Below, in pieces: positions 25,238 through 53,970 of a stretch of DNA of 64,000 bases. The notes under the pieces are model-generated. The model searched no databases. It was not told the origin of the DNA and worked only from the letters and a program-made list of their open reading frames with translations. Source of the DNA: Elusimicrobia bacterium HGW-Elusimicrobia-1 (GTDB lineage Bacteria > Elusimicrobiota > Endomicrobiia > PHAN01); contig PHAN01000004.1 in assembly GCA_002841695.1 (NCBI GenBank), positions 62,001 to 126,000 of the forward strand. The letters are read 5' to 3'. Made by a program: the position numbers and the translations under genes. Position 1 is the stretch's first letter; each line of letters begins with the position of its first letter.

Positions 25238-26143
25238 ATGGAAGAAAAAATAAAATTATTGATGGAAACGGCCGGGTGCAACCGCTACGAAGCCGAGCTG
25301 GCGTACAAGTCCGCGGGCGGCGATTTCGTCGAAGCGCTTGATTTTTTAAACAGGGTGTCCGCCCGGCTGGCCATAACCAGGGGAAAGTTTATGGCCCCCG
25401 GTAAATTTATCTACGGAGTTTTTTTGATCATTGCCGACGTCAGAAAGAAAAGCATTCTTACGGCTTCGGCCGTCGCCACGAAAAATCCGTCGGTGTATGA
25501 GACCGACGTGCTCAGGCCGTGGGAAGATATAGAGAAGACCATATACGCGGCGCGCCTCGGCGCGGGAGCGCTGCCGGAACTTTCCGGCATATTGCAGGAA
25601 AAAATTCTGACCTCGGCGCTTGAATCCGCCGATTTGTCGCCGACGGCGGAGTCCGTGGAAGCGATGCTTTCCGCGGCTCTTGAAACCGAGAACGTGTCCG
25701 TAACTCTTGATACCACCGAAGAGCCCTATAAAACTCCGGTGGTTCCGGGCGCCGACGAGTTCGGCTCGTCTTCGGCGCCCCGTCCGCGCTCGGGCGGCGT
25801 GACTTTGTGCGTGGAGCCCTTGTCCGACGAAAAGGACGGCGTCCGCGCGTCGACTCTTTCGCCGGGAGATGTCGTGTGGATAAGGGTCAGCGACGAGCGG
25901 GAAATTGCCCAGTATCTTGCCGAACGCCTGGGCGCGGCCAAGGACGGAAGGGTCTTTCCGCTGGCCAGTGAAATAGTTTCCGCGGATAAAGATAAAGACA
26001 ACGGCGATGTCACGCTTGGTTTCCGTTTCGCGGAAAACGTGGCCGGACTCGGCCGCGTCGATGGAGCCACAAGAGTTAAAAAGGCCGAACGCTCTGATTC
26101 CGCGGGACGCCTGGCTGAATGGTGGAGAAAACTTTTCGGATGA
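25238..26143 (+). CDS. Unknown protein with N-terminal UBA-like domain
   Basis: 301 residues. Residues about 3-42 (LMETAGCNRYEAELAYKSAGGDFVEALDFLNR) follow the UBA-like helical pattern of EF-Ts and similar proteins. Hydrophobic and acidic segments follow, but no membrane helix or catalytic motif is evident. The C-terminus ends with AEWWRKLFG. It is tightly placed after the Xer gene and overlaps the next gene by 4 nt. I cannot name a family beyond the first domain. It may be a partner of the cofactor or hydrogenase maturation genes that follow. Confidence 0.6.
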   Translation: MEEKIKLLMETAGCNRYEAELAYKSAGGDFVEALDFLNRVSARLAITRGKFMAPGKFIYGVFLIIADVRKKSILTASAVATKNPSVYETDVLRPWEDIEKTIYAARLGAGALPELSGILQEKILTSALESADLSPTAESVEAMLSAALETENVSVTLDTTEEPYKTPVVPGADEFGSSSAPRPRSGGVTLCVEPLSDEKDGVRASTLSPGDVVWIRVSDEREIAQYLAERLGAAKDGRVFPLASEIVSADKDKDNGDVTLGFRFAENVAGLGRVDGATRVKKAERSDSAGRLAEWWRKLFG

Positions 26144-27069
26144 CGCCAATGGCCGACTTGCGCCCCGTGGTAATATCTTTCGTCGGAGAAAGCGGCAGCG
26201 GCAAGACATCGCTCGTTACGGCCGTCGCCGGGCTTCTGGGCCGCGCAGGGCTTTCGGTCGGCGCCCTTAAACACACTTCGTCGGACTTTCGCGCCGCTTC
26301 CGCCGGCAAGGATACGTCCAGATACGAGGACGCGGGCATAGAGTTTTCCGGAATAGTTTCCGATAAGAAATTTTCTTTTACGAGAAATTATTCAGTCCGC
26401 GCCGCAAGCGCCCGTGACATCGCGGCGCGATATTTTTCCGAAGCGGACATAGTTCTGGCCGAAGGTTTCAAAAAAGAGCCCCTGGCAAAGATTCTTGTGG
26501 GCGCTCCGCCCGAAGGTTTCTCCGCATCCTCGGCGGTTTGCGCTGTCCCGTCGTTAAAATCATCCGGCGGCTCTTTTTCGCCCGCAACAGTCCGCCTGGC
26601 CGCCGCCTCGGCGTTTATTTATTACGCGGCATGTGTCAGGCATATTTTCGCGGGCGTCGGCAACCGGATCAAGGGCGACGACGCTTTCGGTCCGTCGGCG
26701 GCCGATGTTTTCGCCGCCGCGGGCTTTTCCGCGGCCGATTGCGGGGACGTTCCGGAAAATTCGGCCAACAAAATAATATCCTCCGCACCCGAAGCGGTCG
26801 TAATTTTCGACGCCGTCAGCGCGCCCGCTGCTTCGACGGGATTCGGAATCTACGCCGCGGACGAACTTTCCGGCATCCAGTTGGGCACTCACGGCGGCGG
26901 AATAAAAATGTTCATAGATTACCTGAAAATGAGTTCTTCGGCGAAAATTGCCGTCATAGGAGCGCACGGCGCGTCTTTCGCCCTGGGCGACGGTCTGTCG
27001 CCCGGGCCGCGCGAGGCCGTCGCCGGACTCGACGTTCTGGCGCGAAGGATAAAGCTATGCATGAGCTGA
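26140..27069 (+). CDS. MobB fused to hydrogenase maturation endopeptidase
   Basis: 309 residues from ATG at 26140, which gives an ATGA overlap with the previous gene; a start at 26119 is less likely. Residues about 8-165 are MobB, which helps attach nucleotides to molybdopterin: the P-loop GESGSGKT (16-23), LKHTSSDF, the GKDTSRYEDAG loop and ADIVLAEGFKKEP are visible. Residues about 168-309 are a HycI/HybD-type protease, which trims [NiFe]-hydrogenase large subunits: GVGNRIKGDDAFGP (172-185), IFDAVS with D224, GTHGG with H251 and LSPGP. In this family the nickel-probing acidic residue, aspartate and histidine are the key sites. The fusion joins two unrelated metal-cofactor pathways. Confidence 0.85.
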   Translation: MTPMADLRPVVISFVGESGSGKTSLVTAVAGLLGRAGLSVGALKHTSSDFRAASAGKDTSRYEDAGIEFSGIVSDKKFSFTRNYSVRAASARDIAARYFSEADIVLAEGFKKEPLAKILVGAPPEGFSASSAVCAVPSLKSSGGSFSPATVRLAAASAFIYYAACVRHIFAGVGNRIKGDDAFGPSAADVFAAAGFSAADCGDVPENSANKIISSAPEAVVIFDAVSAPAASTGFGIYAADELSGIQLGTHGGGIKMFIDYLKMSSSAKIAVIGAHGASFALGDGLSPGPREAVAGLDVLARRIKLCMS

Positions 27070-27410
27070 CAATCGCCCGCCCTCTGTTAGCCGATATTAA
27101 AGCCGAGGCGTCCCGTAAAGGCCTCAAAATTGTTTCGCGGATAATTATTTCCGTCGGTGCGGCATCCGGCGTCGATCCTGATTTTTTAAGACATTCATTC
27201 GCGGATCATCTGTTTGCGGGGACTTCTTTTGCCTCCGCAGAGCTTATAATAGAGACGGCTCAGCCGCTTATAAAATGCCGCGCCTGCCGAAAAGAAATTT
27301 CCAGGGAGGATTTTATCCCGGAAAAACCGCTGCAAAATTGTCCATCCTGCGGTTCGTTCGTGCTCGATGTCGTCTCCGGCGACGCCGTGCGCGTCCTCGA
27401 AGTGGTATAA
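27057..27410 (+). CDS. hypA: Hydrogenase nickel incorporation protein HypA
   Basis: 117 residues from ATG at 27057, overlapping the end of the fusion gene by 13 nt. The N-terminus is MHEL, with the nickel-binding His2 and Glu3. A zinc site is formed by CRAC (residues 74-77) and CPSC (95-98). HypA delivers nickel to the [NiFe]-hydrogenase large subunit with HypB. Length is normal. The overlap with a hydrogenase protease domain supports a [NiFe]-type role. HypB, C, D, E and F are not in the window as separate genes. Confidence 0.93.
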   Translation: MHELTIARPLLADIKAEASRKGLKIVSRIIISVGAASGVDPDFLRHSFADHLFAGTSFASAELIIETAQPLIKCRACRKEISREDFIPEKPLQNCPSCGSFVLDVVSGDAVRVLEVV

Positions 27411-27600: not shown

Positions 27601-27625
27601 TAATAACCCTTGCGTAATGCGTAAT

Positions 27626-29032
27626 ATGAAAGAATCAATCGTGGATACGCCGCGCGTATCCGAAATTCTATCGGCCTGTATATCTTCGGGCGATCCGTCG
27701 GCGGCTTCCGCCGTTGTCGAGCGCGCCCGGGATAAAAAAGGTTTCGGCGTCGAAGACGCGGCCAAAATAATCGGCGCCCTCGGCGACCCTGATTTCGACC
27801 GGCGGCTTTTCGAGGCCGCGGCTTCCGTCAAGAAGGACATTTACGGGGAGCGTCTCGTTTTCTTCGCGCCGCTTTATCTTTCAAACCGCTGCGCGAACGA
27901 CTGCGCCTACTGCAATTTTAAGTCGGCGCACTCCGCGCTCAAACGGGCGGATTTAAGTGTCGAAGAAATTACGCGCGAAACCGCGTCGCTCTTGTCAATG
28001 GGACATAAAAGATTGCTTCTGGAATCGGGCGAGTCGCCCGAATTTGGCGTCGAGAGAGTTACGGAGGCCATCCGCGCGATATACTCCGTAAAAACGCGCT
28101 TTGGCTCCATACGCAGGGTTAATGTCAACATCGCCGCAACCTCGACGGAAAATTACCGCAAGTTGAAATCGGCGGGCATCGGCACTTACCAGCTTTTTCA
28201 GGAGACCTATCATCCCGCCGCGTACGCCGACGTCCATCCGCGCGGGCCCAAGTCGGACTATATCCGTCAGATAACCGCCCACGACAGGGCGTTTGAAGCG
28301 GGCATCGACGACGTTGGACTGGGCGTTCTGTTCGGGCTCTACGACTGGCGCTTTGAAGCGCTGTGTTTGATAGAACACGCGACCCGCCTTGAAAAAAAAC
28401 ACGGCGTGGGCCCTCACACGATTTCCGTTCCGCGATTCCGCCCCGCCGACGGCGTGGAATATGCGCCGCGGTACGCGGTTTCCGACGAGGATTTCCTGCG
28501 AATCATCGCCATACTCCGTCTGGCCGTGCCGTACACGGGGCTTATAATCAGCACCCGTGAGCGCCCTGACATCCGCGCGAAGGCCTTCGGCATAGGTATA
28601 TCGCAGGCCTCGGCGGCTTCGGCCACGGGCGTGGGCGGTTATGGCGTCCGCGCGTCGGGGACTGCGAAGTCCGTCGGCGCGAAGGCGGGACAATTCGCGG
28701 TTTCCGACGAGCGGCCGCTGGCCGACGTCGTGGCTTCCGCGCTTAAAGACGGTCTTCTGCCGAGTTTTTGCACGGCCTGTTATCGTCGCGGCCGCACCGG
28801 CGAAAAATTCATGGAACTGGCCAAGCCGGCCGAAATACACAACTTCTGCCGGCCGAACGCCATACTGACATTCGCCGAATATCTGGAAGATTTTGCCGCT
28901 CCGGCGGTTTACCGCAAGGGCATGGCCGTCATAGAGAAAACCCTCGCGGCCGTCGAGGACGCCGCAATGAGACAAAATACGCGCTCTGCGCTCGACCGCA
29001 TAAAAAATGGCGAGCGTGACGTTTACTTTTAA
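27626..29032 (+). CDS. hydG: [FeFe]-hydrogenase maturase HydG
   Basis: 468 residues from ATG at 27626; the ATG at 27617 is an alternative, while longer frames cross the repeat. HydG is a radical-SAM tyrosine lyase that makes the CO and cyanide ligands on an iron synthon. The SAM cluster motif is C89-x3-C93-x2-C96 (CANDCAYC). The auxiliary cluster signature C382-x2-C385-x22-C408 (CTACYRRGRTG ... NFC) is complete. This C-terminal signature separates HydG from ThiH. Length is that of HydG. A HydE gene follows after 5 nt. HydF and a structural hydrogenase are not seen. Confidence 0.95.
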   Translation: MKESIVDTPRVSEILSACISSGDPSAASAVVERARDKKGFGVEDAAKIIGALGDPDFDRRLFEAAASVKKDIYGERLVFFAPLYLSNRCANDCAYCNFKSAHSALKRADLSVEEITRETASLLSMGHKRLLLESGESPEFGVERVTEAIRAIYSVKTRFGSIRRVNVNIAATSTENYRKLKSAGIGTYQLFQETYHPAAYADVHPRGPKSDYIRQITAHDRAFEAGIDDVGLGVLFGLYDWRFEALCLIEHATRLEKKHGVGPHTISVPRFRPADGVEYAPRYAVSDEDFLRIIAILRLAVPYTGLIISTRERPDIRAKAFGIGISQASAASATGVGGYGVRASGTAKSVGAKAGQFAVSDERPLADVVASALKDGLLPSFCTACYRRGRTGEKFMELAKPAEIHNFCRPNAILTFAEYLEDFAAPAVYRKGMAVIEKTLAAVEDAAMRQNTRSALDRIKNGERDVYF

Positions 29033-29037
29033 AAATT

Positions 29038-30222
29038 ATGTGCTATGCGATGCCGGGCAGAGTGACGGAAATTTCCGACGGAAAGGTCGTCGTCGATTAC
29101 TTCGGCGAGCGCCGCCGCGTCCGCAATGATTTTTTCAAACTTGCCGTCGGCGATTACGTTTACGCGCAGGGCGGCTTCATAGTCCAGAGAATATCCGCGG
29201 CTGAGGCCGAGCCGGTTTTGACGACGTGGAAAGAATATTTCGCCCAGCTCAATAAGACGGATTTGCGGCTGGCGTCCACGGGCGAAGATTTGCGCGCCCG
29301 CGCCAATCGCGTGAGGCGCGAGCATACCGGCAATTCTTCGTGCGTGCACGGAATAATAGAATTCTCCAACCATTGCCGCGCCGACTGTCTGTATTGCGGA
29401 CTTCGCTCCTCGAATAAATCCCTTAAACGGTATCGTATGACACCCGGCGAAATCGTGGCCGCCGCCGACTACGCCATCGAGAAGTTGGGTTTTAAGGCGA
29501 TTGTCCTGCAATCGGGCGAGGATGCGTTTTTCGACGGGAAAACTCTGTCCGGAATAATCGCGCGGATAATGGGCAAACATCCCGTTTTGATAGTTATGAG
29601 CGTAGGCGAGCGCGATTATTCCGACTACGAGGCAATGTACTCCGCCGGCGCGCGCGGCGCGCTGATAAGATTTGAAACTTCAAACCCCGTCATATACGAA
29701 AAACTCCGCCCGGGCCGACGGCAGGCGGAAAGATTGTCGCTGATAAAACGCCTCAAATCCGACGGATGGATAATTATGAGCGGTTTCATCCAGGGTCTGC
29801 CGGGCCAGACGGAAAAAGACATCGCCGCCGATATCAAACTTTCCGAGTCGCTGGGCGTGGAGATGATGAGCTTCGGCCCGCTTATACCTCACCCCGATAC
29901 GCCGCTGGCCGCCGCGCCGCCGGCCGATTTTGAAAAGATACTCGACACCATCGCCCGCGCCAGGATAATGTTTCCCGAACTCAGGATACTTGTGACCACC
30001 GCGGCCGAAACGCTCGGCGGAAAAGAGGCCGCCCGCAGGGCGCTTATGGCGGGGGCCAACTCCGTTATGGTCAATCTTACCCCGCCCGAATATTCAGGGC
30101 TTTATTCGCTTTATCCCGGTCGCGTCCCCGTCGCGGGCTCCCGAGGCGAAGCCGTGGCCGAAACGGTGAAAATGCTCAGAGAAATGGGACGCGCTCCGTC
30201 GGATATAGGTTCCACGGAATAA
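29038..30222 (+). CDS. hydE: HypC domain fused to [FeFe]-hydrogenase maturase HydE
   Basis: 394 residues. Residues 1 to about 68 match HypC/HupF, the chaperone that carries the Fe(CO)(CN)2 unit for [NiFe] hydrogenases: MCYAMPG with the essential Cys2, then VGDYVYAQGGFIVQ and an acidic EAEPVL helix. Residues about 95-394 are the HydE radical-SAM barrel: C113-x3-C117-x2-C120 (CRADCLYC), LKRYRMTPGEI, IVLQSGED, RFETSNP, SGFIQGLPGQT and PLIPHPDTPL. HydE is usually about 350 residues without HypC. It makes part of the dithiolate bridge precursor. The stop codon shares one base with the next start (TAATG). Confidence 0.9.
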   Translation: MCYAMPGRVTEISDGKVVVDYFGERRRVRNDFFKLAVGDYVYAQGGFIVQRISAAEAEPVLTTWKEYFAQLNKTDLRLASTGEDLRARANRVRREHTGNSSCVHGIIEFSNHCRADCLYCGLRSSNKSLKRYRMTPGEIVAAADYAIEKLGFKAIVLQSGEDAFFDGKTLSGIIARIMGKHPVLIVMSVGERDYSDYEAMYSAGARGALIRFETSNPVIYEKLRPGRRQAERLSLIKRLKSDGWIIMSGFIQGLPGQTEKDIAADIKLSESLGVEMMSFGPLIPHPDTPLAAAPPADFEKILDTIARARIMFPELRILVTTAAETLGGKEAARRALMAGANSVMVNLTPPEYSGLYSLYPGRVPVAGSRGEAVAETVKMLREMGRAPSDIGSTE

Positions 30223-44004: not shown

Positions 44005-47000
44005 ATGAAAAACAGAGGCGCAATTTCCGCCATCTTTTCAAACGTTAAATCTGCCCGCCGGAACGCGGTATCGGGTGGGCTTTTTGACTTTGTCCGCAAA
44101 ACTTCCCTTGCAGCCGTTCGCTCTTTCTTCGTTGTCTCTCTCCTTATAATATCTTCCAAACTAAACGTTTTCGCCACCGGCCAGTCGTTGGATAGTTGGG
44201 TCTGGGTCGCTTCGGCTCCCGTGGCCGCGGCATCGGGCGTATCTGTGGCTGATACAAACACCGACGTATATATTTTTCGGGGCGGCGCAATTTCTTTCTT
44301 GAAATATTCTCCTACGACGAATAATTGGGTCTGGTTATCATCAGCTCCCGTGGCGACCGGAACCGGGTCGGATTTAGCGTGGGCAGGCGGTGATTTTATT
44401 TATGCGCTGCGCGGCGGTTTCACAAATGAATTTTGGGAGTATCATATTTCCGGCGATTCATGGACGGTAAAAACTGCCCTTACGGTGAATGTAAGTTCGG
44501 GAGCTTCGCTGGCATGGGCAGGCGGAAACTTTGTATACGCAACCCAAGGCGAAACAGCAGAGTTTTATATGTATGATATAGCAGCAAATGTATGGGTTTC
44601 AACGACATCGCTGCCATTGACAATAGGTGGGGAATGTGAAATTGTCTGGGACGGCGGAAATTATTTATATGTTTATCGTGATAAAGCAAGCACCACTTTT
44701 TATAGATACAACTTAACTACTTACTCCTGGGCGACAGTGACGGGATGGCCGTGGGGAACTTCAACTCCGGGCACTGGTGCATCGTTAGTGTGGAATAAAG
44801 TAACTGACACAAACAATAATTTGTTCGGTCACAGAGGCGCGGGTTCTTCACAGTTTGCAAGGTACTGTATCACCCACAGTTCATGGAACTGTACTCAAGA
44901 TGGATTTCCCTATAGCGATCCGGTAGATACTCCATCTGCGATTGACACGTATAGAGGACAAAGGTTGGCAGTTGTTGGTGATTACATATACTGTTACGGA
45001 GGGAGTGCGGCTGCAAGCGGAAAATATTTTTTACGCTATCGTTGGCGGGACGTTGCCGCTCCCGGCGCAATAACGGGTTTTGCGGCGGCGACAGGCGCAA
45101 CCGGCGGCGAAATAAATCTTTCGTGGACTTCGCCCGGCAACGATAGTTACACGGGAGCCCTCCCCGTCGGGAGCACATTTTACATCCAATACGCCACTTG
45201 GACGGGAGTTAATTTTTCCACGGACACGCGCCCTCCGACGGGCGGATATGACCTCTCGATACCCACCGGCCCCGTAACTCCGGGCACAAGTGTTTATTAT
45301 ACGCTGGGTTCGCTTACCGGCGGCGTGACATATTATTTCAGGATATGGTCGCGCGACAATGCCGGCAACTGGTCGGACATTTCAGTCGGGGCGACTTCCT
45401 GGGCGCAGGTGTTTCCTGTAATACCCGCCAAGCCATCGTGGGTTACGGGGGAAATTGAGGTAACGACCGGCTCCATAAAATGGGTTCTTAAAAACGAACA
45501 TACCGACACCGCCGAATTGTTTCTGGCAACCGGTCAGAGCGTGCCACAGCGCATAGTCGGCGCCGAACTCGGTCAGATACTCACGACCGAGACGACCTCA
45601 TGGACCGAGTACGACCTCGACCCAAACACCGCCTACACCCGCTACGGCGAGGCGTATCTTGCCACCGGCTCATCGTGGTCGAGCGGACTTACGAAATACA
45701 CGCTGGCCATTCCGCCCGCCGCTCCGACAGCCGTCGCTCTTTCTTATAACACCATAGACGTCTCGTGGGCCGGTTCTCCGACACCCCCGTCCAAATACAT
45801 AATCGCCCGTTCCGTCGACAACTTTGCCACTCCATGGTCTACCGCCGCCGTGGTTCTTGCGCCCGGCACCACGCATCAGGATACCGGCCTTGCGGCCAAT
45901 ACCGGGTACAAATATAGAATCTATGTCATCAACGGCGACGACGTTATGAGTCCCGCTCCCAGCCCCGATTCCGCCGCAACGCTTACTTATCCCGCCGCGC
46001 CGACGGCCTTCGCCGCCTCGAACGTCTACATCACGTCTATAACCTGGCAGTGGACGGCCTCAGCCGGCGGCGCCGATGGCTATCGCGTATATATGGCATC
46101 GTCGCCCTCCACGATGGCCGCCGACGTCGCGGCGGCTACGACTTACGACGAAGACGCCCTGGGAGCCAACGCTCAGTACGGCCGTTTTGCCGTGGCTTAC
46201 AACGCCACCGGCGAATCGCTCGCCTCAAATCAGACCACCGTCTACACGATGGCCTTCGCCCCCACGGCCCTTGAAATCACCAATGTTTTTTCCTCGTCGG
46301 TCACGCTTTCCTGGACCGACGGCGTCAATCCCGCCGGCACCATATACGGCGTAGCCCGCGCCGACAGCTCCGGCTTCGCCGGTTCCACCACTTTTTATAA
46401 TTTCTCCGACGGCCTCACCGCCGCCACCGCCTCCGCCGATGGCTTGGGCGGCGGAGCGACTTACTACTTCCGCGTGTGGGCTTTTAACAACGGGCAGGTT
46501 GCGTCCGCCTACAGTAACGAAGTCAGCACCGTTATGCCCCCGGGCGTTCCGGGCGCTCCCGACGGACTTTACGGCCTCGCGGTATCGACCACGGTAATCA
46601 AATGGGAATGGAACATAACGCTCAACGCCACTTTCTATCAGATTTGCGGCCCCGACCCCGACACGCTTATTGCCAATATCGAGGACGATGTTCTGGCGGG
46701 CGGCGCCACCACGTGGCTTGAGCACGGGCTGAACCTCAACGCCAATTACACCCGCTACGTGAAAGCCGGCAACGCTTCCGGTCTTTCCGCCGCTTCGGTC
46801 GCGGCGGCCCGTTACACTTACGCTCATCCGCCTGCCGCCCTTGTGGCGGCCGCCGTGTCGTCATCGACGATAAATCTTTCTTGGGATGATTCGGGAGCCG
46901 CGCAATATCAGGTTTGGGTTTCTACCACAGGCCCCGGAACGGAGCCGCTGACAAACCCCACTACGACCGTCGCGCTGACGTATTCGCACGAAAACCTTAA

Positions 47001-50000
47001 CGCCGGAGTTACTCATTATTACCGCATCATACCGGTGAACGGCAACGACCTGGCCTATGCCGCGTTCAACTTCCCCACCGCTTCGACGAGAACTCTGCCT
47101 TCTCCGGTTGCGACGTTTACCGCTACGGCATTTACGAATGATTCCATAACGTGGCAGTGGTCGGTCGCCGCGGGCGCGGATTTTTACAACCTTTATAACG
47201 CCGCCACTGACGCGCTTGTTCAGACGCTCGGCGACGTTGTTTCTTATCAGGAAACAGGACTCGGCGTAAACGCTCAGGCGGGACGTTACGTCCGCGCGCA
47301 CAATACGTCCGGTTCCGGAGTTCTTTCGCCCCGCAACACTTTCTACACGCTTGCCAACGCCCCGACGGCTTTAGCGGTAACCGGAGTCACCACCGAAAGC
47401 GTTTCGCTTTCGTGGAGCAACAACTCCAATCCCGGCACCGTCAGATACGAAGTGTCGCAATCTACGGATAACTTTTCTACGAGTTTCTCCACGCCCGTAA
47501 CCCTCGGCGCCAATCATTTAACCACCACCGCCGATATCGGCTCGCTGACCCAAAACACCACTTACCAATTCCGCGTCCGCGCTTTCAACGGCGACGCCGC
47601 GGCTACCGGATTTGTCACGGCGGTCAGCACTAAGACCGCCGCTATCGCGGTTGTTACGCTGATAAATGAAAACTTCGATGGCGGCACTTATGCTCCGGCC
47701 GGCTGGTTATCTATAAACGTTACATCCTCAACCACGCGCTCGGTCAGTTCTCCCGCCAGTGTGACTAACTTTACGGCGGCAAACTACTTGTTTACTCCGT
47801 TGCTTGAGTCGCCGGTCACTTTGACTTTCCAATTATACGTTACCGGTGTGCCATCCACATTTACCGTGCAGGTCGGAACATCTCAAGTTACCACCGGCAC
47901 GTGGACGACCGTCCACAGCACCGGAGGTATAGCAACCACATGGCAAGAACAGACGGTGGATTTGTCGTCGTATCAAAATGTTTACGTGAGGATGAACAGA
48001 ACCGCAGGGTCCAACACGTTTAACGTAGACGACGTACTTGTAACCGGGTTTCCAAACTTAATACCGCCCGCGCCCATATCCAACCTAACCGCTCTTGCCG
48101 GCGCCTCGGAAGGTCAGTTAAATCTCCGCTGGACGTCTCCCACGGCCGACGACGGCGCGTCCGTCGCGTTGAACGGCGGATACGTCATAAAATACTCGTC
48201 GGTCCAAATCATCAATTCGTCGAACTTTGACGCGCCCGCCTTCGCCCACGGCTCCGTGACCATATCCACGAACGTCGCCGCCGGCACGGCTGTGGGATAT
48301 CCGCTTTCTCTTACGCCCGGAACATCATACTGGTTCGCCATAAAATCCACCGACACAGCGGGCAATCTTTCCGTGTGGAATTCATCCGCGAATGTCTCGA
48401 CGATAAACACCGCCGCCTATGGCTGGGCTTATGACGCCGCGCCTCCTGCGCCGGCCAACCTCGCCGCGACCGTGTCGGACAACTCCATAAAGCTCACGTG
48501 GGACGCCGTCGCCGCCGACGACCTCTCGCACTATGAACTTTTCTATTCGTCCACCGACCCCTACGATTTCTCGGACAACCTCGTGGCGACCGTAACCGTC
48601 AATACCTCGTTTACCCACACGGGTCTTGAAGATCACGTCACCCATTATTATAAGGTGAGGGCGGCCGACCTGCCCCCGACGGTTCTTTACAGCGATTTTT
48701 CAAATATCGTTTCCACATTCCCGCGCCCGTCGGCGCCGTTCGCTCCGTCGCTGGCCTATGATTTGTCGGCCACGACTACGGACTCAATCAAATGGGTCGT
48801 AACCGATACCGCCGCCAACGAGACGGGACTTCATATTTCATCCGCCGCGAACGACGGAGCGCGTCTTTGGTCGAGCAATTCTCTGGCCGGTTCGGGCGGC
48901 ACGACTTCATGGATAGAAACCGGGTTCAACGCCAACGAAGCCATAACCCGCTATGCCGAGGCGTCGAACGCCGTCGGAAGCGCGTGGTCGGGTTCGCTGA
49001 CCCGATACACTCGCGCCCGCGCTCCTTCGACGCTTGTCGCAGACGCGGTTTATTTCTCGTCAATGACACTCTCCTGGGACGCCAACGGCAACCTCGGCTT
49101 GCCCAAATACGAAATCTCGATATCGTCCGATAAATTCTCGGTATTTTTCGCCACGCCGATTGCTCTTGCGGCCAGTCACACCGCCGTCACCGCCGACATA
49201 ACCGGACTCGTTCAGGGAACCACATACTGGCTCCGCGCCCGCGCCTATAACGGCGACAATGTCGCCTCGGTATTCTCGTCCACGATTAACTTTATCACCG
49301 CGCGCGTTCCGACGCAATATCTTAAAATCGCCAATCCGGGGTTTGAGATGTCTCCGGATTTAACCGGCTGGACGAACGCCGGCTCTTCCGCCTCCGACCC
49401 GACGAGGTCAACCACTTATAAACGAAGCGGCTTGTATGCGGCCAAATTCCTGGATCCTCTCGGCACTTTCTTCCCCAGCGCGTCGCGCCGCAGAATTATG
49501 TCGTCAACATCCACCGTTACGGCGGGGAATAATTACTCCGTCGGGATGTGGGCTTATGTGAGAAATGAAGCGGGCTCCGTCGGCGATTCACAGTTACGGA
49601 TTGGTATTCACTGGCTTGATGTCAATAGCGTAGGTATATCTACCAGTATTTCGTCGGCCCTGTCTCTTTCCGCATTCAGCACGTGGGAAAAACTCTCATA
49701 TTCCGACGTTGCTCCCGCCGGAGCCGTGGCTGCGGTTATGATTATAGATGTATGGGAAAACGTCAACAACAATAATGACATATACATAGACGATGTGGAC
49801 AACCTTTCCGATATCACGCCCCCCGGCGCGATAACCGACCTTGCCGCCGTCAAAGGAACCAACGCCGGAGAAATAAATATCTCATGGACGGCCCCCGGCG
49901 ACGACGGCTACGCCGAGAACAACGGCGCGTCCGCAGTTTATACTTTGAGATACGCGACTTATCCGATGGTTGCCGCTTCTTCCTGGACGTGGCGCAACAA

Positions 50001-53000
50001 CGCGATTGTTTATTATCAGCAGTGGCCCGTCTCCGCCGTCGGGACGACCGAGAGCCGCACTCTTTCGCTTGTGCCGGGCGTTACATATTATTTCCTGATG
50101 AGGACTTACGACGCGGCCGGCAATGTCTCGGAGTTCGACACTAATTCTCTGGTCGCGCAATCCTCCGCCTGCGCGAAAGAAGGCCGCACCGGCGGGCAAA
50201 TTGTAATCAATGAAATCAATTGCAGTAAGACCCCGAACTGGATTGAATTTTATAACGCCTCGACGTCTACGGTGGATATGTCGAGCTGGAAAGTGTTTGA
50301 GGTCGCCGAAAGCACTTTCGCCGCCGTCAAAACATACAGCAGTTTCTCGCTGCCCGCCGGGCATTATCTGGTGCTTTATTTCGGATCGAGCGCTTCCGAC
50401 AGCGCCACTCCGTACACGGCATCCGGCGACACATATTATAAAACATACACAAATAACACCGGCTTGACGGAGACGGATAACGCAATCGTCGTTAAAAATT
50501 CGGCCGGCGCATGTGTAGACGCGATGTTTTACGCCGATGGCAGCGGCTCTCTGACCAATTCAACAAGGTACAAAGTGGCTCTCAACGAGGCGATAACCAA
50601 CAATCAGTGGACGGCGCCTATCAGCCCCGGCGATGAAGATGTCGAAAAATATTACACCGCTTCGTCGAAATTTTTGAAATCGGGACTTACCCTCGCGCGC
50701 GACGATAAATCCACCGACGGCACCAACCCCTCTAAAGCGGAGTGGCACGTTCACGCCTCGCCCACCCCCGGCGGCCCGACGGAAGGATACAAAAACCGCG
50801 TCCCCGACACAACGCCGCCCGCGCAGATAAATAATCTGGCGGCGGTTACAGGAGACAATCGCGGAACCATAAATCTGACTTGGAATGCCCCCGGCGAAGA
50901 CGGCGCGACAAATACCGCTCAACTCTACATAGTAAGATACTCGCCCAATATTATTGCCGACGACGCCGGATTTGACGCGGCCGAGGTCAAGTATAACGAC
51001 AAATCGTTCACGTACGCGCTCGATTCCAATGTTTACGAGACCATAACATGGAACCCGTCCGCCCCCGGCGCGGCTCAAAGTTATGCCCTCGGGTCGCTTG
51101 CGCCGGGCGTGACCTATTACATAGCCGTCAAGACGGAAGACGAGCAGCCGAACAGGTCGCTGTTGTCCAACGTTGTGACGTTATATGCGTCAAACAGCGT
51201 GGGCTCGAACGTCAGAATAAATGAAGTTGCGCCGATGGAGACCAACGACTGGATAGAACTTTACAACGCGACGACGAATCAGATAGATTTGAGTGGTTGG
51301 GAGATATGCACTAACATTCAAGGCACCGATATCTCCGGTGTAATCGAAGCAGGGAGTGACTACAGTATACTCAAGACTATCCCATCAGGGTTCGTTCTGC
51401 CGGCGACAAGTTATGCCATTTTGAATATGGGCTATGTTACCCCGCCGGCCGACGAGACGAGCGCGGATACCAACGGAAACGGCTGGCGCGATCTTTATAG
51501 CGCAAACTCTCTGATGGATATCGCCGGGGTTGTTTTCATAAGAAATAAAAACAAGACATTTGTTGACACTGTCGCTTATTCTGACGGCATAGATAATCCC
51601 AACTGGTCCAATTTGTGGAAATGGTTCAACGGCCACCGTCAATGGTCGCCGGCTACGGCCTCTATGACCGACGCCGCCGACTGGTCGGCCGCTTCGGGCG
51701 GAAGGGTTCAGGGCAGAACATTCGGCCGCGACTCTTTCTCCACCGATACCGACGATACCGCCGCCGCCAAAGACGACTGGAAGATTTTTGTCGTTCCGAC
51801 CAAAGGCGCCCAGAACGACGACGTTCCGCCCGCCGCGATAACCAATCTCTCCGCTTTGGCTGACCCTGACGTCGAGGGGAAAATAACTCTCACGTGGACA
51901 GCCCCCGGCGACGACGGCATCATCGGCAACAATTCCGGCGGATATTATATCGTCAAATACGCGACATTTTCCGTCGTTGACATAAGTTCATGGACTTGGT
52001 GGAACTCAATATCCACGACAACCGCCCCGAACGTCGACAAGGGCTGGAAAATAAAATCTCCGCCGTCCGCGGTGGGTTTAACCGAAACGCAGATACTCAC
52101 CGGCCTTTATCCCGCCTCGACATACTATTTCGCCGTCCGCACGGTTGACGATGTGGCCAACTGGTCGGCGCTTGATTTGCAGATAGGCGACGCCGACCCC
52201 GCCGTGCAGGCGCAGGCCATAGCCACCAACCTTCCGCCCGCCGCTCCGACGGGAGTGGCGGCAGCCGCGGGCAACAGGACGGCCGCGCTGTCGTGGCTTG
52301 CGAGTCCGGCCCTCGACTTAAAAGAATACAGGATTTCCAGTAACACCGTCAATGATTTCTCCGACGGCGGCACCACGCTTGCGGCTGTGGTATCGTCCGC
52401 AACGCTCACGTACGACGCCGCGGGACTTTCAAACGGCGTCACATATTACTTCTGGATACAGGCGATGGATGTCTCCAACCTGACCGGTTCTACGTCGACG
52501 GTGGTTTCGGCCCTGCCCGTAATTTCTCCGCCGTCGGGACTTGTCGCCGCCCACAAAGGCACGTGGGTAGAACTTTCTTGGACCGCCTCTCCCGATTCCG
52601 CTTCGACGAACTTCGCCGGTTACGCGATATACCGCTCGTCGGTGTCGTCTTCGTCGGACTTCAATCTGCTGGCAGTCCTGAGCGGCGGCGGGTCAACCAC
52701 TCACTACGACACGTCCTCGGTCTCGGCCACTCAGACCTATTACTACTTCCTGCGTTCGTCGGATACTGCCGGGCCCGAAAGCGCCGCGACATCGGTCGTT
52801 ACCGCCGTCCCCGACGACAAAGGTCCTGTTATAACGGTGATAAGCCCCGCGGCAAGCACGGTAAACGTGGCCGTCAAAGGCTCCAAAATAGTTCTTGAGA
52901 TTTCCGTTCGCGAGGACGAGACCACTCCGTATATTTCCGGTATAGATGCGTCTTGGACGCTTGTCGCCTATTCCACGGCCTCCGGCGGCGCGGCTGTGCA

Positions 53001-53970
53001 CGTGTCGACGCTTGAAATGGTGGCGAACAGTAATTCTTACGGGCAGGGGGGGCTGCTCGCCGCGAAATTCAGATTATCCCTCGATGCGGCAACACCCGGC
53101 ATTATCCCCGAACTTAAAGACATACTCGCCAACGGAGGCACTTTCTTTTTCTACTTTGTGTCGGTGGATAACGCTTTGAATATATCGTATGTGGGGCCTT
53201 ACGTAGCGTTTATTCAGTCCGAGGCGCGCGTTGTTTCCGTCGTGGCCGCGTCGGCCGGCGGCACGGTAGCCCTCGCCGACGGCAACCCCGAAGACGGAGA
53301 AACTTCCGTAACGATACCCGCCGGAGCGTTGTCGCGGGACATTACCATAACGATTGAGCAGGCCAACCCCGCCTCGTCGGCTATAACCCCCGCGGCGAAG
53401 GAATCCACGATAAATACATCCGTAAACTCCGGCCGTCCCATAGCGGTTTACATCTTCGGCCCCGAAGGGACGATTTTTGCCAAACCCGTTACAATTACGC
53501 TGCTTTACTTCGAGGATGGCGGCGTGATAAAAGATATCAACGGCGATACGATAGCCGGCGCCACCGAGGACGATTTAAGGATTTACCGCTGGGACGGCGT
53601 CGAGTGGAGATTTATCGGCGGTACCGTCGATAAGATAAAGAATACGGTGTCGACGAAAGTGTCCCACTTCTCGGTTTACGCCCTATTCAATTCAAAAGGC
53701 GCTCCGCCCAAACCCGTGGCGATGGAGAAATTTATAACGCCCAACTCCGACGGCATCAACGACCGTTTGGAGTTCGACGGCTCGCCCGCCGACTTCAAAG
53801 AAATAATTATCTACGACATAAACGGACGTCTCATAAGGAAACTCGAAGGCGAAAGTTTCTGGGACGCCAAAGACGACTCAGGCAAGGTCGTCGAGATAGG
53901 CGCCTACATCTGGCGCGCGGTCTACACGAACGGCACGGCAAACTACGGCACCGTTGTGGTGGCCAAATAA
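44005..53970 (+). CDS. Giant Kelch/FN3/lamin-tail surface protein (3321 residues)
   Basis: A signal or anchor segment (about 35-53) is followed by Kelch-like repeats (about 67-350, each with a GG and W motif). Many fibronectin type III-like units come next, several opening with GEINLSWT and PGDDG (for example near nucleotides 45100, 49870, 50870, 51890). A cleaved-adhesin/CBM-like segment (about 1210-1350) and another near 1770-1925 are seen. Two lamin-tail domains start at about residues 2064 (IVINEINCSKTPNWIEFYN) and 2400 (RINEVAPMETNDWIELYN). A ZU5-like region (about 3075-3230) and a FlgD/CHU_C-type end (FITPNSDGINDRLEF ... GAYIWRAVY) finish it. It should be exported and displayed on the surface as an adhesin or large structural protein. 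Function is inferred. Confidence 0.85.
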   Translation: MKNRGAISAIFSNVKSARRNAVSGGLFDFVRKTSLAAVRSFFVVSLLIISSKLNVFATGQSLDSWVWVASAPVAAASGVSVADTNTDVYIFRGGAISFLKYSPTTNNWVWLSSAPVATGTGSDLAWAGGDFIYALRGGFTNEFWEYHISGDSWTVKTALTVNVSSGASLAWAGGNFVYATQGETAEFYMYDIAANVWVSTTSLPLTIGGECEIVWDGGNYLYVYRDKASTTFYRYNLTTYSWATVTGWPWGTSTPGTGASLVWNKVTDTNNNLFGHRGAGSSQFARYCITHSSWNCTQDGFPYSDPVDTPSAIDTYRGQRLAVVGDYIYCYGGSAAASGKYFLRYRWRDVAAPGAITGFAAATGATGGEINLSWTSPGNDSYTGALPVGSTFYIQYATWTGVNFSTDTRPPTGGYDLSIPTGPVTPGTSVYYTLGSLTGGVTYYFRIWSRDNAGNWSDISVGATSWAQVFPVIPAKPSWVTGEIEVTTGSIKWVLKNEHTDTAELFLATGQSVPQRIVGAELGQILTTETTSWTEYDLDPNTAYTRYGEAYLATGSSWSSGLTKYTLAIPPAAPTAVALSYNTIDVSWAGSPTPPSKYIIARSVDNFATPWSTAAVVLAPGTTHQDTGLAANTGYKYRIYVINGDDVMSPAPSPDSAATLTYPAAPTAFAASNVYITSITWQWTASAGGADGYRVYMASSPSTMAADVAAATTYDEDALGANAQYGRFAVAYNATGESLASNQTTVYTMAFAPTALEITNVFSSSVTLSWTDGVNPAGTIYGVARADSSGFAGSTTFYNFSDGLTAATASADGLGGGATYYFRVWAFNNGQVASAYSNEVSTVMPPGVPGAPDGLYGLAVSTTVIKWEWNITLNATFYQICGPDPDTLIANIEDDVLAGGATTWLEHGLNLNANYTRYVKAGNASGLSAASVAAARYTYAHPPAALVAAAVSSSTINLSWDDSGAAQYQVWVSTTGPGTEPLTNPTTTVALTYSHENLNAGVTHYYRIIPVNGNDLAYAAFNFPTASTRTLPSPVATFTATAFTNDSITWQWSVAAGADFYNLYNAATDALVQTLGDVVSYQETGLGVNAQAGRYVRAHNTSGSGVLSPRNTFYTLANAPTALAVTGVTTESVSLSWSNNSNPGTVRYEVSQSTDNFSTSFSTPVTLGANHLTTTADIGSLTQNTTYQFRVRAFNGDAAATGFVTAVSTKTAAIAVVTLINENFDGGTYAPAGWLSINVTSSTTRSVSSPASVTNFTAANYLFTPLLESPVTLTFQLYVTGVPSTFTVQVGTSQVTTGTWTTVHSTGGIATTWQEQTVDLSSYQNVYVRMNRTAGSNTFNVDDVLVTGFPNLIPPAPISNLTALAGASEGQLNLRWTSPTADDGASVALNGGYVIKYSSVQIINSSNFDAPAFAHGSVTISTNVAAGTAVGYPLSLTPGTSYWFAIKSTDTAGNLSVWNSSANVSTINTAAYGWAYDAAPPAPANLAATVSDNSIKLTWDAVAADDLSHYELFYSSTDPYDFSDNLVATVTVNTSFTHTGLEDHVTHYYKVRAADLPPTVLYSDFSNIVSTFPRPSAPFAPSLAYDLSATTTDSIKWVVTDTAANETGLHISSAANDGARLWSSNSLAGSGGTTSWIETGFNANEAITRYAEASNAVGSAWSGSLTRYTRARAPSTLVADAVYFSSMTLSWDANGNLGLPKYEISISSDKFSVFFATPIALAASHTAVTADITGLVQGTTYWLRARAYNGDNVASVFSSTINFITARVPTQYLKIANPGFEMSPDLTGWTNAGSSASDPTRSTTYKRSGLYAAKFLDPLGTFFPSASRRRIMSSTSTVTAGNNYSVGMWAYVRNEAGSVGDSQLRIGIHWLDVNSVGISTSISSALSLSAFSTWEKLSYSDVAPAGAVAAVMIIDVWENVNNNNDIYIDDVDNLSDITPPGAITDLAAVKGTNAGEINISWTAPGDDGYAENNGASAVYTLRYATYPMVAASSWTWRNNAIVYYQQWPVSAVGTTESRTLSLVPGVTYYFLMRTYDAAGNVSEFDTNSLVAQSSACAKEGRTGGQIVINEINCSKTPNWIEFYNASTSTVDMSSWKVFEVAESTFAAVKTYSSFSLPAGHYLVLYFGSSASDSATPYTASGDTYYKTYTNNTGLTETDNAIVVKNSAGACVDAMFYADGSGSLTNSTRYKVALNEAITNNQWTAPISPGDEDVEKYYTASSKFLKSGLTLARDDKSTDGTNPSKAEWHVHASPTPGGPTEGYKNRVPDTTPPAQINNLAAVTGDNRGTINLTWNAPGEDGATNTAQLYIVRYSPNIIADDAGFDAAEVKYNDKSFTYALDSNVYETITWNPSAPGAAQSYALGSLAPGVTYYIAVKTEDEQPNRSLLSNVVTLYASNSVGSNVRINEVAPMETNDWIELYNATTNQIDLSGWEICTNIQGTDISGVIEAGSDYSILKTIPSGFVLPATSYAILNMGYVTPPADETSADTNGNGWRDLYSANSLMDIAGVVFIRNKNKTFVDTVAYSDGIDNPNWSNLWKWFNGHRQWSPATASMTDAADWSAASGGRVQGRTFGRDSFSTDTDDTAAAKDDWKIFVVPTKGAQNDDVPPAAITNLSALADPDVEGKITLTWTAPGDDGIIGNNSGGYYIVKYATFSVVDISSWTWWNSISTTTAPNVDKGWKIKSPPSAVGLTETQILTGLYPASTYYFAVRTVDDVANWSALDLQIGDADPAVQAQAIATNLPPAAPTGVAAAAGNRTAALSWLASPALDLKEYRISSNTVNDFSDGGTTLAAVVSSATLTYDAAGLSNGVTYYFWIQAMDVSNLTGSTSTVVSALPVISPPSGLVAAHKGTWVELSWTASPDSASTNFAGYAIYRSSVSSSSDFNLLAVLSGGGSTTHYDTSSVSATQTYYYFLRSSDTAGPESAATSVVTAVPDDKGPVITVISPAASTVNVAVKGSKIVLEISVREDETTPYISGIDASWTLVAYSTASGGAAVHVSTLEMVANSNSYGQGGLLAAKFRLSLDAATPGIIPELKDILANGGTFFFYFVSVDNALNISYVGPYVAFIQSEARVVSVVAASAGGTVALADGNPEDGETSVTIPAGALSRDITITIEQANPASSAITPAAKESTINTSVNSGRPIAVYIFGPEGTIFAKPVTITLLYFEDGGVIKDINGDTIAGATEDDLRIYRWDGVEWRFIGGTVDKIKNTVSTKVSHFSVYALFNSKGAPPKPVAMEKFITPNSDGINDRLEFDGSPADFKEIIIYDINGRLIRKLEGESFWDAKDDSGKVVEIGAYIWRAVYTNGTANYGTVVVAK

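Follow-up and report, generated by a model that had tools for sequence, protein, structure and literature searches.

A HypC–HydE fusion protein as a candidate replacement for the HypCDEF machinery of [NiFe] hydrogenase maturation

The genome of Elusimicrobia bacterium HGW-Elusimicrobia-1 encodes a single protein in which a HypC domain is joined to HydE, and its gene lies directly downstream of hydG. We consider it likely that HydG and this HypC–HydE fusion replace HypCDEF in making the Fe-CO-CN unit of [NiFe] hydrogenases, with both CO and cyanide drawn from tyrosine. The proposal is built from the fusion itself, gene content, co-occurrence, gene order, a separate clade and an active-site signature; it is directed to the [NiFe] enzymes because the fusion travels with [NiFe] operons and with the absence of HypD.

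The maturation routes of the two large hydrogenase classes are taught as unrelated, with cyanide from carbamoyl phosphate assembled on HypCD for [NiFe] enzymes and tyrosine-derived ligands passing through HydG, HydE and HydF for [FeFe] enzymes. In the [FeFe] pathway, HydG splits tyrosine into CO and CN⁻. Its product, Fe(Cys)(CO)2(CN), is handed directly to HydE, which adenosylates and reduces it and presumably joins two such units for HydF (PMC11736057). In [NiFe] maturation, cyanide is supplied by HypE/HypF, and Fe(CO)(CN)2 is assembled on HypC/HypD (PMC6802093). All parts of the system described here belong to known families; put together, they would make the [NiFe] site by a route not yet reported. 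The open-access full text of PubMed Central, a corpus that leaves preprints and most subscription papers outside, yielded no paper describing the fusion or HydG/HydE acting in [NiFe] maturation.

The features of the fusion and its neighbours in the window, i.e., the whole 64,000-nucleotide stretch of DNA analysed, are collected in Table 1. The initial annotation had proposed a HypC domain joined to HydE, and this is confirmed: one intact ORF matches both families. HupF_HypC (PF01455) covers residues 1–64 at 53.9 bits (2e-14; cutoff 28.5), spanning profile positions 1–65 of 65, while Radical_SAM covers residues 107–267 (3e-18) and BATS residues 282–384. The best NCBIfam family is HydE, TIGR03956, with an E-value of 4.5e-67 and a score of 226.7 bits that falls under the equivalog cutoff of 254.6 bits. 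Residues 1–67 align with the solved HypC structures 2z1c, 3vyr and 3d3r, and residues 82–388 with Thermotoga maritima HydE. Third-position GC runs across the domain junction without a break.

Table 1. Coordinates of the HypC–HydE fusion, its functional residues and its upstream neighbours in the window
Feature	Position	Strand	Basis or remark
HypC–HydE fusion protein, 394 aa	29038..30222	+	ATG start, no internal stop, Pfam/NCBIfam matches
HypC domain, residues 1–64	29038..29229	+	PF01455; alignment to 2z1c/3d3r
Cys2 codon	29041–29043	+	HypC domain
Gln44 codon	29167–29169	+	occupies the place of the canonical HypC His
Linker region	29230..29280	+	AlphaFold2 model
HydE-type radical SAM domain	29281..30219	+	TIGR03956; conservation versus plain HydE; fold match to T. 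maritima HydE 3iiz/7o1o
CX3CX2C, C113/C117/C120	codons 29374–29397	+	HydE-type domain
Signature residue C102	29341–29343	+	HydE-type domain
Signature residue H104	29347–29349	+	HydE-type domain
HydG, tyrosine-lyase radical SAM enzyme	27617..29032, start codon approximate	+	TIGR03955
HypA, nickel metallochaperone	27066..27410	+	PF01155, 65.9 bits
MobB-like P-loop GTPase fused to HycI-type hydrogenase maturation protease	26119..27069	+	PF03205, 90.8 bits; TIGR00072, 53.8 bits, residues 178–302

An AlphaFold2 model of the whole fusion, computed from an alignment of 81 fusions, reached a mean pLDDT of 91.9 and a pTM of 0.91, and predicts residues 54–79 as one long helix that contains the linker and runs into the HydE domain. 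The closest solved fold found by Foldseek is T. maritima HydE. This enzyme (3ciw, 7o1o, 8qmk) has the same fold and is about 39% identical in the radical SAM domain, but it has no HypC domain, carries another active-site signature and works with HydF/HydA. HypC 2z1c is likewise the same domain as fusion residues 1–67, including Cys2, but it is free-standing, has HypD as its partner and has a His where the fusion has Gln44.

A frameshift in the assembly or a chance join is ruled out by recurrence of the architecture in about 80 independent assemblies. A GTDB-wide scan returned 190 relatives, and each of the best 80 covers both HypC and HydE; all 81 members of the alignment (A2) match both PF01455 and the radical SAM family PF04055. 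The fusion is therefore real and no assembly artefact. Cys2, Gln44 and the radical SAM cysteines C113, C117 and C120 are invariant in the 81 aligned fusions. Cys2, whose conservation the initial annotation had singled out, is present in 86/86 fusions, an invariance that is partly by construction, one of the two scan patterns containing MCYA; rows retrieved with the other pattern also keep it.

The genes for HydG, HypA and the GTPase–protease lie directly upstream of the fusion in the same direction. HypA and the protease are [NiFe] maturation proteins; HydG is one of the [FeFe] maturases. The window HydG scores 519 bits against TIGR03955 (cutoff 312) and 483 bits against structure 4wcx, and a motif check found that it retains the cysteines of both the radical SAM and the auxiliary cluster, along with the conserved GPHTIS His. 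Downstream of the fusion lies a UvrD-like helicase gene; farther upstream, inspection of the translations indicated topoisomerase I-like and XerD-like genes. Elsewhere in the window, positions 44005–53970 form a single ORF of 3321 residues.

The gene content of the host genome (2.06 Mb in 25 contigs, 96.9% complete, 0.06% contaminated) points to a [NiFe] role. The fusion is its only copy of HypC. Neither HypD nor an [FeFe] hydrogenase H-domain was found in the genome, and HypF and HydF gave only weak, sub-cutoff matches to general domains; control genomes hold genuine copies, with HypF at 700 bits (G125) and HydF at 467–500 bits (G016, G125). One [NiFe] large subunit is present, on contig C14 among Mrp/Mbh-type membrane subunits. 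It carries CGIC and DPCYCC, hence all four metal-binding cysteines, and a C-terminal extension that would need a protease. Among NCBIfam families it matches NuoD best, which would be expected of a group 4 enzyme; NuoD itself lacks the metal-binding CGIC/DPCYCC motifs that this subunit keeps. These findings bear on the initial suggestion that the fusion links [NiFe] and [FeFe] maturation: the identities of the two domains stand, but the bridging does not, as the host has neither [FeFe] hydrogenase nor HydF above cutoff and the neighbours are HypA and a [NiFe]-type protease. The fusion appears to replace HypD/E/F for [NiFe] enzymes rather than to bridge two active pathways. The accompanying idea of a HypC-like scaffold that handles an iron intermediate near HydE fits the evidence.

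To place this in a wider context, 341 genomes of the phylum were surveyed. HypD occurs in 118 of these, and in over 100 genomes its score exceeds 400 bits; [FeFe] hydrogenase occurs in 188. Full-length fusions were found in at least seven (G000, G330, G237, G239, G240, G144 and G241; in the last, the match began at residue 86, yet the ORF starts with HypC). None of these seven has HypD or [FeFe] hydrogenase, and all seven have a [NiFe] large subunit. With n = 7, the exclusion within the phylum is significant for [FeFe] hydrogenase (Fisher p = 0.003) but not for HypD (p = 0.10), and the weight of the HypD exclusion thus rests on the wider genome set.

That wider set spans many phyla. Fusion-bearing bacteria include Omnitrophota, Elusimicrobia, Planctomycetota (among them Candidatus Scalindua), Lentisphaerae, Margulisbacteria/Saganbacteria, Brevinematales, Auribacterota, Nitrospirae, Bdellovibrio and Patescibacteria, and fusion-bearing DPANN archaea include Micrarchaeota, Nanoarchaeota, Woesearchaeota and Aenigmatarchaeota. 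Among the 50 fusion genomes searched from the GTDB-wide set, HypD was found in none, and 48 have a [NiFe] large subunit. Three share their contigs with phylum genomes (L065 = G330, L084 = G240, L091 = G144), giving non-redundant totals of 0/54 for HypD and 52/54 for the [NiFe] large subunit, the two genomes without a detected large subunit being G342 and G366. Matches to HydF and HypF in the fusion genomes stayed below cutoff and covered only the GTPase domain, an acylphosphatase-like domain or another single domain. The genome-wide searches covered HypD, HypF, HydF, [FeFe] hydrogenase and the [NiFe] large subunit. Nearly all fusion genomes are metagenome-assembled, so that absences rest on incomplete bins; nevertheless, a HypD count of 0/54 is hard to explain by bin incompleteness.

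Gene order at the fusion loci is consistent with this distribution. In 45/81 loci, the fusion has a [NiFe] subunit gene no more than 9 kb away on the same contig, many of the contigs being short, and the flanks contain a maturation protease in 36, HypA in 22 and HydG in 61 of the 81; HypD and HypF were never found there. Typical arrangements are those of L137, HyhB–HyhG–small subunit–large subunit–protease–HypA–fusion–HydG, and of L087, group-4/Mrp operon–protease–HydG–fusion. The clearest operon, L039 in G144, runs through a group-3-type large subunit, a HycI-type protease, HydG, the fusion and HypA, yet it comes from a bin with 7% estimated contamination. Both CxxC motifs are kept in 68 of 74 large-subunit ORFs, the others being truncated or having a variant N-terminal motif. 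The segment E-A/V-P-R-G, which we take to help line the cyanide pocket in ordinary [NiFe] enzymes, is kept in 70 of the 74.

An [FeFe] HydA gene was found near the fusion (within about 10 kb) at three loci, L110, L124 and L143; a further match at L098 covers only the N-terminal part of the query. L124 is the single most telling locus, with two HydE types, each beside its own kind of hydrogenase. Here the fusion follows a [NiFe] large subunit and protease, and a few kb farther on (L124:16146–21289) lie an [FeFe] HydA operon, HydG and a second, plain HydE. The fused copy has C102 and H104, the plain copy the ordinary Ile and Arg. Only one HydG is present in this stretch. The locus offers a natural system for comparing both HydE types.

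The difference between the two types extends across the family. In a tree of 82 rows built with a quick method, the fused HydE domains form one clade against the plain HydEs and T. maritima HydE (SH-aLRT 100), the plain sample being limited to T. maritima and members of one phylum. At position 102, 86/86 fusions have Cys and 23/23 plain HydEs have Tyr or His; the plain L124 copy has Ile. Position 104, which aligns with T. maritima R54, is His in 86/86 fusions versus Arg in 23/23 plain HydEs, and position 207, which aligns with R155, is Gly, Ala or Ser in 86/86 versus Arg in 23/23. Positions 102 and 104 sit on the strand before the radical SAM motif, and we infer that the arginines equivalent to R54 and R155 are functionally important. 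In the HypC domain, the His of the VHxGF motif, present in 2z1c, 3vyr and 3d3r, is replaced by Gln44 in all fusions. Such changes would be expected if the fused HydE handled a related but different intermediate and its HypC no longer paired with HypD.

The HydG proteins compared keep C420 and C446 in 66/66 and H302 in 67/67, while C423 is present in 57/66, with Gly in the other nine. At nine loci the auxiliary-cluster motif of HydG reads CTAGYRC where CTACYR is usual, namely L104, L106, L109, L117, L121, L130, L138 and L141, and also the plain-HydE locus L032.

Taken together, these observations suggest the following mechanism. HydG would convert tyrosine to CO and CN⁻ and, as its conserved motifs indicate, build an Fe(CO)x(CN)y–cysteine synthon on its auxiliary cluster. 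The fused HydE domain would take the synthon from HydG and process it by radical SAM chemistry. With HydF missing, a single Fe unit may then pass to Cys2 of the protein's own HypC, with no diiron pairing; the domain order would keep this cysteine at the free N-terminus. HypC would bring the Fe unit into the apo large subunit, HypA would provide nickel, and the HycI-type protease would trim the large-subunit C-terminus. A second tyrosine turnover could give the second cyanide, converting Fe(CO)2(CN) to the Fe(CO)(CN)2 that a [NiFe] site is presumed to require. This exchange of CO for CN is the weakest step of the proposal, and we know of no precedent for it.

The proposed system shares with the E. 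coli HypCDEF system a HypC with Cys2, HypA, a HycI-type C-terminal protease and a [NiFe] large subunit whose C-terminus extends beyond DPCxxC. It differs in having no HypD or HypF, in the fusion of HypC to HydE, in the replacement of the VHxGF His by Gln, and in a probable origin of CO and cyanide from tyrosine, where E. coli uses carbamoyl phosphate. With the HydEFG system it shares a HydG with radical SAM and auxiliary-cluster residues, the HydE fold with CX3CX2C and, putatively, the Fe-CO-CN synthon chemistry; in contrast, HydF and HydA are missing, an N-terminal HypC is added, and the fused HydE, a clade of its own, has C102/H104 and lacks Arg at the equivalents of T. maritima R54 and R155. 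HypX is comparable as an alternative source of diatomic ligands for [NiFe] sites, but it works with HypC/HypD (PMC6802093), whereas the fusion system has no HypD and its HydG would give both CO and CN.

If the proposal is true, many uncultured bacteria and archaea make the [NiFe] site by [FeFe]-type radical chemistry, which would explain genomes that have [NiFe] hydrogenases but no HypD or HypF. The Fe-CO-CN product of HydG would then be a building block common to both cofactors, and HydG, HypC–HydE, HypA and a protease would constitute a compact [NiFe] maturation set for making such enzymes.

Other explanations were weighed against the same data. That the fusion serves [FeFe] maturation, its HypC assisting HydE as a carrier or taking the place of HydF, would agree with the classical role of HydE and HydG as [FeFe] maturases, with the window HydG scoring over its equivalog cutoff, and with HydA lying near the fusion at three loci. 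We nevertheless reject this role as improbable on gene content and on L124: there is no [FeFe] hydrogenase in the host or in any of the seven phylum fusion genomes, nor a HydF over cutoff in the host, the neighbours of the fusion are [NiFe] subunits, protease and HypA, and the HydA of L124 is accompanied by its own plain HydE. A variant of the replacement of HypCDEF by HydG and HypC–HydE deserves more weight, though we regard it as unlikely. Here the CO and CN would again come from tyrosine, through two radical SAM enzymes and a built-in HypC, but the finished [NiFe] site of these bacteria and DPANN archaea would be a non-standard Fe(CO)2(CN). HydG does make Fe(CO)2(CN)(Cys) (PMC11736057), and no HypF route to an extra cyanide was found in the host genome. 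Against this, HydG releases CN and CO in equal amounts and should thus have a second CN to offer. The retention of E-A/V-P-R-G, presumably a cyanide-pocket segment, in most large-subunit ORFs also speaks for the standard site.

HydE and HydG might instead supply CO only, in the manner of HypX, with cyanide and assembly left to divergent or undetected HypDEF proteins. A separate CO source of this kind is known in some [NiFe] systems (PMC6802093), and of these three proteins the genome-wide searches addressed HypD and HypF; we find this very improbable, as a HypD conserved enough to exceed 400 bits in more than 100 phylum genomes is found in none of the 54 fusion genomes, HypF is missing too, and HydG inherently yields CN alongside CO. 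Least probable of all, and hardly credible to us, is an artefact of draft bins in which the fusion and [NiFe] contigs were mis-binned into HypD-less genomes. Two observations would agree with this: the HydE domains of L136 and L139 are identical although their bins carry the labels Falkowbacteria and WOR-1, one bin probably being contaminated, and the contamination of G144 was mentioned above. However, the fusion and a [NiFe] subunit share a contig in more than half of the loci, HypD and HypF are never beside them, and the host genome is nearly complete with minimal contamination. Replacement of HypCDEF by HydG and the fusion thus remains our preferred reading.

Some partner genes at these loci have features of their own. 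In the window, the GTPase half of the ORF at 26119–27069 might be a genuine MobB or do the work of HypB; its conservation as a system component is not supported, since other loci match the protease half only. In the G144 operon, a MinD/Mrp-type ATPase (L039:17925–18638) directly follows HypA, and a MinD-type HypB is reportedly known in Thermococcus. At L100 and L154, a 622-residue frame continues from the [NiFe] large subunit into the maturation protease after DPCISCATH, an arrangement that needs explaining if the C-terminus is normally cleaved.
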